This document shows, piece by piece, positions 44,587-48,174 of a stretch of 64,000 bases of DNA (positions are counted from its first letter, which is position 1; every line of letters begins with the position of its first letter). The stretch covers positions 1 to 64,000 of the forward strand of contig JALOLR010000011.1 of assembly GCA_025455885.1 (NCBI GenBank). The letters are read 5' to 3'. The notes below the pieces were generated by a model, which worked only from the letters and a program-made list of their open reading frames with translations, had not been told where the DNA came from and made no database searches. The position numbers were made by a program, and so were the translations under genes. The DNA comes from Acidimicrobiales bacterium (GTDB lineage Bacteria; Actinomycetota; Acidimicrobiia; Acidimicrobiales; Acidimicrobilacustridaceae).

Positions 44587-45087
44587 GTGCGCGAGGTCCG
44601 ACTCGAGATCCCGGCCCGCGCCGACTACCTCTCGTTGGCCCGCCAGGTCGTGGCCGCGGCGGCCGCCGTCGAGCCCCGCTTCCGCACCGAGCGCATCGAC
44701 GACCTCCGGGTGGCCGTCTCCGAGGCGACCACCAACGCCGTCGAGGCGCACGCCGATCTCGAGAGCGACGAGAGGATCGTGATCACCTGCGATCTCGACG
44801 AGGAGCGGATCCGGGTCGAGGTGGTCGACCGGGGTGGGGGCTTCGACCCCGAGGGCGTCCCGGTGGTCCCCGACGCCGAGGACCCCGCCCGTCTGGGGTT
44901 CGAGCACGGTCTCGGCCTGCCCATCATGCGAGAGCTCGCCGACGAGTCCGAGATCGTCGCCTCGCCCGAGGGGACGTCGGTGCGCCTGGTCGTCTACCGC
45001 TCCGCGGCCGCTGCCGAGCGCGGAGCGGGCGACGCCGACGCTGCGTCGAGCGCCCCCGCCGTCGAGGGCCCCGGAGCATCTGGCTAG
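44587..45087 (+). CDS. RsbW/SpoIIAB-like serine kinase anti-sigma factor
   Basis: 166 aa GHKL-ATPase-fold protein. The N box is VSEATTNAVEAHAD, followed by DRGGGFDPEG and HGLGLPIMRELADE. Such kinases bind a sigma factor and phosphorylate the STAS partner encoded just upstream. The C-terminal 25 residues are Ala/Asp-rich and unconserved. Which sigma factor is held is unknown; none adjoins directly. Its last codons overlap the -10 box of the Mrp operon. Confidence 0.88.
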   Translation: MREVRLEIPARADYLSLARQVVAAAAAVEPRFRTERIDDLRVAVSEATTNAVEAHADLESDERIVITCDLDEERIRVEVVDRGGGFDPEGVPVVPDAEDPARLGFEHGLGLPIMRELADESEIVASPEGTSVRLVVYRSAAAAERGAGDADAASSAPAVEGPGASG

Positions 45088-45244
45088 AGTCTGCCGACCG
45101 ACGTCATCAACTGGTCACATTCGGGAAACAGCGGCGAGACCCACGCGCGGTAGACCGCTTTGAACCGGGTGGACCGTCAGCAGATGTGCCGGGAGGTCCG
45201 GTCGGCGTCGCTGATCGACGAGTCGCTCCGAAGGAGGCACCCCC
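45085..45244 (+). promoter_or_regulatory. Promoter and long leader of the Mrp antiporter operon
   Basis: TAGAGT (45085-45090) overlaps the stop of the RsbW-like gene; the start of transcription would be near 45097, leaving about 148 nt before translation. The leader ends with AAGGAGG at 45231-45237. CCGACC near the 5' end could pair with GGTCGG near 45200. A regulatory RNA is possible but no known riboswitch was recognised. Confidence 0.4.
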
Positions 45245-47677
45245 CTGCTCGCCCTCGTCCTGCTCTACGGCCTCCTGGCCGTCGTGGTCGCCCTCGCGGG
45301 TCGGAGCCTCGGGTCGAGGGTCTTCTGGTTGGCCGCCGTGGCCCCTTTGGCCACCGTGGCCTACGCCGTCGCCGCCGGGGTGTGGATCGGCGACGACGGC
45401 GCGTGGACCGAGTCGTTCAGCTGGGTGCCGGCGCTGGGGCTCGAGATGGACTTCCGCCTGGACGGCTTCGGCGTGTTGATGCTGATGGTCATCGGGGTGG
45501 TCGGGGTGGCGGTCTTCGCCTACTCGGCCGGCTACTTCCACGGCACCACCCGCACGACGCGCACGGCGACCAGCCTCCTGGCCTTCGCCGGGGCCATGGT
45601 CGGCTTGGTGGTGTCCGACAACGTGTTGCTCCTGTTCCTCTTCTGGGAGCTCACCTCGGTCACCTCGTTCCTGTTGATCGGGACGAAGGACGAAGAGCTC
45701 GGGTCGCGCTCGGCCGCGCAGCACGCCCTGCTGGTCACCGGGGGCGGCGGGCTGGCCATGCTCGGCGGGCTCGTGCTCGTCGCGCAGTCCGCCGGCAGCT
45801 ACGACCTGAGCGCCTGGGTGGCCTCACCCCCGAGCGGCACCACGGTGACGGTCGGCGTGGGACTCATCCTGGTGGGAGCGCTGACGAAGTCGGCCCAGGT
45901 GCCGTTCCACAGCTGGCTCCCGGGGGCCATGGCCGCCCCCACCCCCATCAGCGCGTTCCTCCACTCCGCGACCATGGTCAAGGCAGGGGTCTTCCTCGTC
46001 GCCCGGCTCGCTCCCGCGTTCGCCGACCTCGGGGTGTGGCGCTGGATGGTGCTCGGCGCCGGGGCGGGCTCGCTCCTGCTCGGCGGGTACCGCGCCCTGC
46101 GCCAGCACGACCTGAAGCTCGTCCTCGCTTACGGCACGATCAGTCAGCTGGGCCTGCTCATGATCCTGTTCGGCGCCGGGACCGAGGAGACCACCCTCGC
46201 CGGGTGCGTCCTGCTCGTCGCCCACGCCGCCTTCAAGGCGTCGCTGTTCCTGACCGTCGGGGTCGTCGACCACCAGACCCACACCCGGGACCTCCGGGTC
46301 CTCGACGGCCTCGGTCGGCGCTGGCCGGTGGTGGCGGGCGCGGCCGCCCTCGCCGCGGCGTCGATGGCGGGCCTCCCCCCCCTCCTCGGCTTCATCTCGA
46401 AGGAGTTGGCCCTCAAGGGACTCCTCGAGGACGCCGCGCCGGCCGGCGCCGTGCTGCTCGTCGTCCTGGTCGTCGGCTCGACGTTCACCGTGGCCTACAG
46501 CGCCCGCTTCGTCTGGGGGGCGTTCGGCCCCGCCGAGGGCGACGGCGTCCACGCCGACGACGCCCCGCGGGAGGTGACGGGTGCCGACGCCCCGCACCCG
46601 TCCAAGGCGTTCGCCGCGGCGCCGGTGGTGCTCGGCGTGCTCGGCCTGGTGCTGGGGCTCGTGCCTGCCCTGTTGAACGGTCTGGTCGGCGCGGCGGTCC
46701 GGGCCCTCGGCTTCCCGGAGGCGGACGTCTCCATCCACCTCTGGGCGGGGGTCAACGCCGCGCTCGGGCTGTCGGTCCTCATCATCGGTCTCGGGGCGGT
46801 GCTGTTCATCGCCCGCCGCACCGTGGAGCGCGGGCAGGCCTCCGTCCCGCCGCTCCCCAGCGCCTTCGGCGCCTACGAGCACGTGATCCGGGGGGTGCTG
46901 CGGGGTGCGGAGCGCCTGACGGGGGTCACCCAGAGCGGGTCGCTGCCCGTCTACCTCGGCGTGATCCTGCTCACGGCCGTGGCCCTCCCCGTCCTGCCGA
47001 TGCTCTCGGCCGGTGGGCCCGACGAGTGGCCGGCGCTCGTCGACTCGCCCCTGCAGCTGGTGCTGGGGTTCGTGATGGTCGTCGCCGCCCTGGCCGCGAC
47101 GGTCACCCGTCGGCGCTTCGTGGCGGTCCTCCTCCTCGGGGCGGTGGGCTACGCCATGGTGGGGATGTTCCTCGTCCAGGGCGCTCCCGACCTCGCCCTC
47201 ACCCAGGTCCTCATCGAGACGCTGGGGATCGCCGCCTTCGTCCTGGTGCTGCGCCACCTCCCGGAGGGCTTCCCCAGGACCATGACCCCCGGTCGCAGGC
47301 TCGTCCCGGCCGTCATCGGCGTCATCGTCGCCGCGTTCGTGTTCGTGTTCCTCATCACGACCGGAGCCCTGCGCGACACGACCCTCACCCCTGACCGGGC
47401 CGCCGAGGACGTCGCCGCCGGCACGGCGTCGGTGAGCGAGGAGTTCCTGGTGCGCTCCGAACCCGAGGCGCACGGGCTCAACGTCGTCAACGTCATCATC
47501 GTCGACTTCCGCGGCTTCGACACCATGGGGGAGATCACGGTGCTCGTGGTGGCGAGCTTGGGCGTGATCGGCCTCGTGAGGGCCGGGCGGCGACGGTTCG
47601 CGCAGGACGACGGTGATCACGCCGCCGACGAGGTCGCCCGCGTGCCCACGGCGACAGCGACGGAGGAGGCCCGGTGA
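45245..47677 (+). CDS. mrpA: Mrp Na+/H+ antiporter subunit A (MrpA with fused MrpB-type domain)
   Basis: 810 aa polytopic membrane protein related to NuoL. The proton-channel part covers roughly 1-500 (SYFHGTTRTTR, ELTSVTSFLLIG, HSWLPGAMAAPTPISAFLHSATMVKAG, ASLFLTVG); a DUF4040/MnhB-like C-terminal part follows (GAPDLALTQVLIETLGIAAFVLVLR). The start is probably CTG 45245: a perfect AAGGAGG lies 7 nt upstream and this restores the first transmembrane helix (LLALVLLYGLLAVVVALAG). The first conventional codon, GTG 45284, has no ribosome site and cuts that helix. It is the first of seven genes, all overlapping by 4 bp. Confidence 0.9.
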   Translation: MLALVLLYGLLAVVVALAGRSLGSRVFWLAAVAPLATVAYAVAAGVWIGDDGAWTESFSWVPALGLEMDFRLDGFGVLMLMVIGVVGVAVFAYSAGYFHGTTRTTRTATSLLAFAGAMVGLVVSDNVLLLFLFWELTSVTSFLLIGTKDEELGSRSAAQHALLVTGGGGLAMLGGLVLVAQSAGSYDLSAWVASPPSGTTVTVGVGLILVGALTKSAQVPFHSWLPGAMAAPTPISAFLHSATMVKAGVFLVARLAPAFADLGVWRWMVLGAGAGSLLLGGYRALRQHDLKLVLAYGTISQLGLLMILFGAGTEETTLAGCVLLVAHAAFKASLFLTVGVVDHQTHTRDLRVLDGLGRRWPVVAGAAALAAASMAGLPPLLGFISKELALKGLLEDAAPAGAVLLVVLVVGSTFTVAYSARFVWGAFGPAEGDGVHADDAPREVTGADAPHPSKAFAAAPVVLGVLGLVLGLVPALLNGLVGAAVRALGFPEADVSIHLWAGVNAALGLSVLIIGLGAVLFIARRTVERGQASVPPLPSAFGAYEHVIRGVLRGAERLTGVTQSGSLPVYLGVILLTAVALPVLPMLSAGGPDEWPALVDSPLQLVLGFVMVVAALAATVTRRRFVAVLLLGAVGYAMVGMFLVQGAPDLALTQVLIETLGIAAFVLVLRHLPEGFPRTMTPGRRLVPAVIGVIVAAFVFVFLITTGALRDTTLTPDRAAEDVAAGTASVSEEFLVRSEPEAHGLNVVNVIIVDFRGFDTMGEITVLVVASLGVIGLVRAGRRRFAQDDGDHAADEVARVPTATATEEAR

Positions 47678-48174
47678 ACCCCGAGCCCGTCGAGCCTCCC
47701 GCCGAGGCGTTCGTCGACCCCGAGGCCGGGCGGGTGCCGATGCGCCCGTCGTCGCCCATCCTCGACATCGTCGTGCGGGCCGAGTTCCACGTGCTGCTCG
47801 TCGTGTCGGTGTACCTGCTCTTCGCGGGGCACAACGGTCCCGGCGGCGGCTTCGTGGGCGGCCTCGTGGCCGGGGCGGCCTGCGCCGTCCGCTACGTGGC
47901 GGGCGGACCGGCCGAGCTGCGCCGTTCCATCCGGGTGCGCCCCACTACCCTCCTCGGTGCCGGGCTCGTGGTCGCCGGAGCGACTGCCTTCCTCTCGCTC
48001 GTCAACGACGGGGGCTTCCTCCAGCACCGCCTCCTGAAGGTCGACGTGCCCTTCATCGGGCCGGTGAAGACGAGCAGTGCGTTCTTCTTCGACTTCGGGG
48101 TCTACCTCGTCGTGCTCGGCACCGTGCTCGTGATCCTCGCCGAGCTCGGCGCCCCGTCGGAGGACGAGCAGTGA
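47674..48174 (+). CDS. mrpB: Mrp antiporter subunit B
   Basis: 166 aa with four membrane helices. The MnhB family block SVYLLFAGHNGPGGGFVGGLVAGAA is clear, followed by FIGPVKTSSAFFFDFGVYLVVLG. It is part of the hetero-oligomeric Na+/H+ antiporter complex. GTG overlaps mrpA by 4 bp. Confidence 0.92.
   Translation: MNPEPVEPPAEAFVDPEAGRVPMRPSSPILDIVVRAEFHVLLVVSVYLLFAGHNGPGGGFVGGLVAGAACAVRYVAGGPAELRRSIRVRPTTLLGAGLVVAGATAFLSLVNDGGFLQHRLLKVDVPFIGPVKTSSAFFFDFGVYLVVLGTVLVILAELGAPSEDEQ

Follow-up and report, generated by a model that had tools for sequence, protein, structure and literature searches.

The window analysed here is a stretch of 64,000 nt from an Acidimicrobiales bacterium (assembly GCA_025455885.1, contig JALOLR010000011.1; the genome is called G000 below). 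It contains mrpA, located between a gene for an anti-sigma-type protein and a gene for an MnhB-domain protein, and the region in front of mrpA holds several short features. Those discussed below are as follows.

44587-45087, + strand: upstream gene for an anti-sigma-type HATPase_c_2 protein, ending 157 nt before the CTG
45188-45206, + strand: degenerate copy of a leader element (GCCGGGAGGTCCGGTCGGC), departing from the element at positions 8 and 12 and at flank position -3, with no TANNNT box at the usual distance
45212-45214, + strand: TGA in the frame of mrpA, barring starts further upstream
45231-45237, + strand: Shine-Dalgarno (SD) sequence AAGGAGG, followed by the 7-nt spacer CACCCCC (45238-45244) and then CTG
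45245-45247, + strand: proposed CTG (CUG) start codon of mrpA, based on SD, frame and relatives
45245-47677, + strand: mrpA coding sequence, 810 amino acids and stop, with Proton_antipo_N/M, MbhD and MbhE domains
45284-45286, + strand: GTG at codon +13, the next conventional in-frame codon, without SD and rejected as the main start
47674-48174, + strand: next gene, for the MnhB-domain protein (a separate MrpB)

The initial annotation had placed a perfect AAGGAGG 7 nt before the CTG at 45245, and the coordinates are borne out. Between the TGA at 45212 and the CTG, the frame consists of ten sense codons (TCG ACG AGT CGC TCC GAA GGA GGC ACC CCC), from which ATG, GTG and TTG are absent, in agreement with the claim that no conventional codon lies near in frame. 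The GTG at 45284 had been said to lack a ribosome site and to cost much of the first membrane helix; an SD match of at least 4 nt is indeed absent there, and about 5 of roughly 18 hydrophobic residues would be left.

The product of mrpA matches Proton_antipo_N, Proton_antipo_M, MbhD and MbhE, all above the Pfam cut-offs. Its closest solved relative is the MrpA chain 7d3u_A, which aligns with residues 2-784 of the query, query residue 2 falling on its residue 5. Therefore, the residues encoded by 45245-45284 appear to belong to the protein. The window protein does not reach the full score of an NCBIfam MrpA model: the best one, NF009284, gives 838.8 bits against a cut-off of 962 (match to 2-777 of 975 positions), and TIGR00940 gives 523.7 against 920.45. 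Since the 975-position NF009284 ends with a region that is matched here by the next gene (the MnhB-domain protein matches positions 815-950), its cut-off is missed, and we read the protein as a member of the Mrp group with split A and B subunits, without a formal match to NF009284 or TIGR00940.

The search for mrpA covered 2 genomes of the genus, 37 of the family, 298 drawn from the order, 395 drawn from the class and 296 drawn from the phylum, as well as 32 loci from a named collection; 5' regions that were missing were retrieved, and the loci fetched are a part of all matches. A strong match is present in 8 of the 37 genomes of the family, with CTG at the start in G000, G001, G016, G030 and G035 and ATG in G010, G024 and G027. 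G001, from the same genus, reads AAGGAGG-CACGCC-CTG-CTC-GCT where the window reads AAGGAGG-CACCCCC-CTG-CTC-GCC; the spacer of G001 is 6 nt, and this indel before the CTG would break any upstream frame common to both. Conservation of MrpA between the two genomes sets in at the CTG: the mean BLOSUM62 score is 3.9 over the 12 residues after it, 11 of which are identical, and -1.3 over the 10 before it, and within the first 50 codons 16 of the 28 differing codons are synonymous. No in-frame stop interrupts the 71 codons upstream of the CTG in G001, which include a GTG at -20 that has no SD. AGGAGG and CTG are found in G016, behind an in-frame TAA five codons upstream, and likewise in G035, where the stop five codons upstream is TGA and a GTG stands at +2 too. 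In another same-genus pair, the 12-nt leader gatcggagtgcc is followed by ATG in G638 and by CTG in G671, and TTG preceded by an SD occupies the homologous place in three loci (L146-L148) from relatives of that family.

For the wider survey, 7 duplicates, 5 own-genome paralogue rows and 20 rows below 40% identity were removed from 150 matching rows, and 2 truncated ones from the remaining 118, which left 116 classified actinobacterial loci. A start was counted as conventional if ATG, GTG or TTG occurs near the homologue of 45245, no more than 4 codons ahead of it or 3 codons behind it. Such a codon is present in 104 loci (47 ATG, 44 GTG, 13 TTG). The initial annotation had named homologues that start at the place of 45284 as evidence against its reading, and these 104 loci instead start near the homologue of 45245, far from 45284. 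Of the other 12, ten have only CTG there (in L139 one codon upstream), L119 has an mrpA broken by a stop codon, and in L096 no start is evident. At L044, L064 and L137 the start is ambiguous: CTG with a strong SD occupies the site, but a conventional codon lies one to three codons from it. An SD of at least 5 nt precedes 8 of the 10 CTG starts and 9 of the 104 conventional ones (2 of 47 ATG, 5 of 44 GTG, 2 of 13 TTG; Fisher p=1.7e-6, not corrected for kinship); the two CTG-only loci without a good SD are L084 (none) and L151 (GGAG). At five loci in draft genomes (L082, L086, L090, L047, L068) an in-frame stop is reported within the mrpA match or frame. Two metagenome-assembled records (L011, L013) are titled Bifidobacterium breve; their MrpA clusters with that of G301, from the order of the window, and the titles look wrong.

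As controls, topA and nuoL were inspected in 30 genomes, 13 of them picked for CTG in mrpA. None of the 26 topA loci with a covered N-terminus (29 found, 3 dropped) needs a CTG; in L196 no conventional codon stands at the homologous site, the nearest being an ATG five codons upstream. In nuoL a conventional codon is found at the homologous site in 25 of 27 loci, and two are unclear: L221 (G351) has CTG at the homologous start without SD and a GTG five codons before, and L225 (G857) has no clear start. G351 also carries a CTG-only mrpA (L084). When 77 syntenic ortholog pairs of G000 and G001 were compared, a strong case for CTG emerged for mrpA alone; its CTG has the highest score (15.7) of the conventional and CTG candidates listed for these pairs, and no other shared candidate has a 7-nt SD in both genomes. 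The best score falls on a shared CTG in the pair at 103398-103970 too (56% identity, 4-nt SDs). This score is crude and takes in shadow reading frames, since 14 of the 77 pairs have no aligned conventional codon.

The combination of SD and CTG is not enriched as a string: AAGGAGG-N5-9-CTG occurs at 24 sites on both strands of the 3.29-Mb genome against 61 for the reversed control, and AGGAGG-N4-8-CTG at 266 against 385 in G000 and 271 against 327 in G001. Therefore, CTG starts are by this measure not a general habit of the genome, and the argument rests on position, in a gene without another usable start, and on conservation. The usual 16S 3' end with the anti-SD, GGATCACCTCCTT, has 0 matches in the 33-contig G000 assembly, from which the 16S 3' end or the rRNA may be missing. 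An open SD as the reason for efficient CUG initiation is not supported by folding of the region -40 to +40, which does not predict it (mean unpaired probability of the SD 0.34 in the window and 0.15-0.51 over 13 loci).

With the SD and CTG shared within the genus, the onset of conservation and the ten CTG loci, the CTG at 45245 very probably is the start of mrpA translation, as had been suggested. Gene callers limited to ATG, GTG and TTG would choose the GTG at 45284, the first conventional in-frame codon after the TGA, and translation from it would give an antiporter subunit with a shortened first helix. Only a small probability can be given to this start; it has no SD, the residues before it are conserved between G000 and G001 with the identities and synonymous changes described above, 104 of the 116 loci start within a few codons of the homologue of 45245, and 7d3u_A covers the region. 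MrpA might also be made by coupling or a frameshift from an upstream frame, for which the 71 open codons of G001 and their GTG at -20 could be cited. However, the in-frame stop lies 11 codons upstream in the window and 5 in G016 and G035, 157 nt separate mrpA from the preceding gene, and conservation is absent upstream of the CTG, so that such a route is hardly credible. A sequencing or assembly error in place of a conventional codon is next to negligible: although the base is the last of six consecutive C directly before TG, nine more separately assembled genomes have CTG there, with no conventional codon near and no C run.

Taking CTG as the start, its origin can be considered on an mrpA tree of 115 rows, in which the bootstrap is not settled and the deep forks are weak. 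The window's family forms a cluster of five rows, all with CTG except for one with ATG. CTG is also shared by L057 and L064, which belong to two other families and pair with full support. The remaining CTG rows are spread over the tree, and the relatives next to each of them use conventional codons. The natural reading is that CTG may have arisen several times from ATG, GTG or TTG and persisted locally, including in the window's family; a single ancient origin with many losses is an admissible but less natural account of these sequences.

Placement of a CUG by the SD, with pairing of the initiator tRNA despite a mismatch at the first base and incorporation of formyl-methionine, is an established mechanism. 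In mrpA, the AAGGAGG with its 7-nt spacer would hold the 30S subunit and thereby bring the CUG into the P site, where the initiator tRNA would pair with U and G and the first-base mismatch would be tolerated. We infer from the sequence, its conservation, the position of the codon and the SD association that initiation takes place at 45245, that the N-terminus of MrpA would be formyl-methionine, and that the strong SD would offset the weak codon, the yield per mRNA being lower and partly restored by the SD. Initiation complexes on CUG are reported to be less stable (PMC11497404). In the mycobacterial selection described in PMC4633059, CUG makes up 0.03% at the leadered position and is not enriched, which, as far as that dataset goes, counts against easy use of CUG; CTG and TTG fail there on leaderless transcripts. 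The SD association in mrpA agrees with this failure and with the compensation between start codon and SD reported by Belinky et al. 2017 (PMC5622118).

CUG is regarded as a negligible bacterial start codon, and callers limited to ATG, GTG and TTG cannot propose it; real N-termini are thereby cut short, and those of mrpA in the CTG genomes should be re-annotated. CUG starts are already known in bacteria, and what is unusual in mrpA is their recurrence within one gene, mostly with a strong SD, which makes it a natural test bed for the balance between a weak codon and a strong SD. The lower yield expected from CUG may set the amount of MrpA or may be merely tolerated.

The upstream regions of mrpA share the sequence GCCGGGAAGNCNGGTCGGC, found as a forward copy with at most 4 substitutions in 40 of 125 locus rows (duplicates included). 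It belongs to a 25-nt element, GGNGY-GCCGGGAAGYCUGGUCGGC-R, which precedes genes for cation transport, among them nhaA, mrp and Na/Ca-exchanger genes. With at most 3 substitutions and within 250 nt upstream, the element is present at 34 of 115 distinct mrpA loci; L041, L043, L044 and L045 are among the loci that contribute to the 131 copies in all. The pattern occurs at 116 places in 95 of the 298 genomes of the order against 1 for the reversed control, and the orientation test does not separate the two strands, with 26 of 26 on the same strand and 23 of 26 on the opposite one. The copy in the window has a G at element position 8 that is found in no other of the 131 copies, and with two departures in the core, another at -3 and no box it is probably decaying. 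An intact copy in the same genome (G000:C3:228970-228988, L241) precedes a Na+/Ca2+ exchanger gene. The element accompanies 8 of 13 CTG loci (the ten CTG-only loci with L044, L064 and L137) and 26 of 102 others (p=0.019, uncorrected for kinship); the link is weak, both going with leadered transcripts.

Of the 116 places, 14 are known mrpA leaders and the other 102 were fetched, with one downstream open reading frame (ORF) per place picked by length and GC bias and scanned against Pfam (E up to 1e-8). The families found are NhaA (51), Na_Ca_ex (19), Mrp/Proton_antipo_M (6), Na_H_Exchanger (3), cation P-ATPase (2), Cation_efflux (2, and 2 at weaker E) and DUF2254 (2), with one each of ammonium transporter, H_PPase, UPF0182, AI-2E, NfeD and Castor/Pollux; the rest gave no match at E up to 1e-8. 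Based on its two matches among the 102, the membrane family DUF2254 may belong to cation homeostasis. Small membrane proteins follow the element at L233, L243 and L252, with weak Cation_efflux matches, and at L235, similar by eye; at L244 an ORF of 483 codons follows.

Conservation in the 131 copies extends beyond the search pattern, with G at -4 in 130, G at -3 in 126, G at -1 in 127 and T at position 12 in 119. A TANNNT box lies 3-25 nt upstream in 102 of the 131 copies, most often (89 copies) at a distance of 11-14 nt; shuffled sequence has it in 9 of 131. This spacing puts the expected 5' end of the RNA no more than a few bases from GGNGY, directly after the predicted promoter. On either side of the GCCG/CGGC stem, positions 0 and +1 read T-G in 60 copies, C-A in 35, A-A in 17, A-G in 6, T-A in 5 and others in 8; they covary (Fisher p=1e-20 for T/C versus G/A, kinship not corrected), and Watson-Crick pairs are rare (T-A 5, C-G 1). 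Since U-G and C-A have similar wobble geometry, this points to an RNA. Against the RNA reading, neighbouring columns further downstream share mutual information too (0.48 versus 0.57), the search pattern itself determined the core, and the predicted folds do not converge on one stable form (the inner pairing 2-14 to 5-11 has a mean probability of 0.32). No Rfam 15 family matches the element at gathering scores (20 loci) or at E up to 10 (14 loci), and none of the 15 matches at the latter threshold is Na+-I, Li+-I or Li+-II.

It is possible, at somewhat less than even odds, that the element represents a new class of cis-acting RNA in Actinomycetota. It would stand at or a few bases from the 5' end of mRNAs for NhaA, Na+/Ca2+ exchangers and Mrp, as well as NhaP-type exchangers, cation P-ATPases and cation efflux proteins. 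Its fold would be the GCCG/CGGC stem, capped by a nearly invariant 11-nt loop and with U-G or C-A as a basal wobble pair, and the candidate stem-loop would sense Na+ (or Li+, or pH), directly or via a protein. Where some of these genes have a CUG start behind a strong SD, this start would add a second brake to the leader, one that could be tuned. The element was not found described in the open-access literature and is apparently uncatalogued; as the more novel lead of the two, it may be a larger discovery than the CTG start. Should it be confirmed, Actinomycetota would have in it the first component of a cation regulon at the RNA level, and the element would be a candidate sensor of very small size.

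Compared with known systems, the window protein shares Proton_antipo_N/M, MbhD, MbhE and the alignment to 7d3u_A with MrpA of Mrp Na+/H+ antiporters, whereas the MnhB domain, with which NF009284 ends, is encoded here by a gene of its own. As in known CUG-start genes of bacteria, CTG lies at the homologous start with a properly spaced SD and no conventional alternative. Reconstructed switches to CUG are very rare in the counts given in PMC5622118 (2 of 61,358 ancestral AUG, 1 of 5,080 GUG and 1 of 2,468 UUG); in contrast, mrpA has CTG in 10 of 116 loci and in several lineages. The weak codon goes with a strong SD in mrpA (8 of 10 versus 9 of 104) as it does in Belinky et al. 2017 (PMC5622118), but the weak codons reported there are GUG and UUG and that of mrpA is CUG. 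The Na+-I (DUF1646), Li+-I (nhaA-I) and Li+-II (nhaA-II) riboswitches are leader RNAs of alkali-cation transporter genes (PMC9337991, PMC9646797), in whose main texts the word 'Actinobacteria' is absent. The element resembles them, as far as these two papers describe them, in leading genes of alkali-cation transporters, nhaA prominent among them, and differs in its length of about 25 nt, its one short stem and its lack of an Rfam match.
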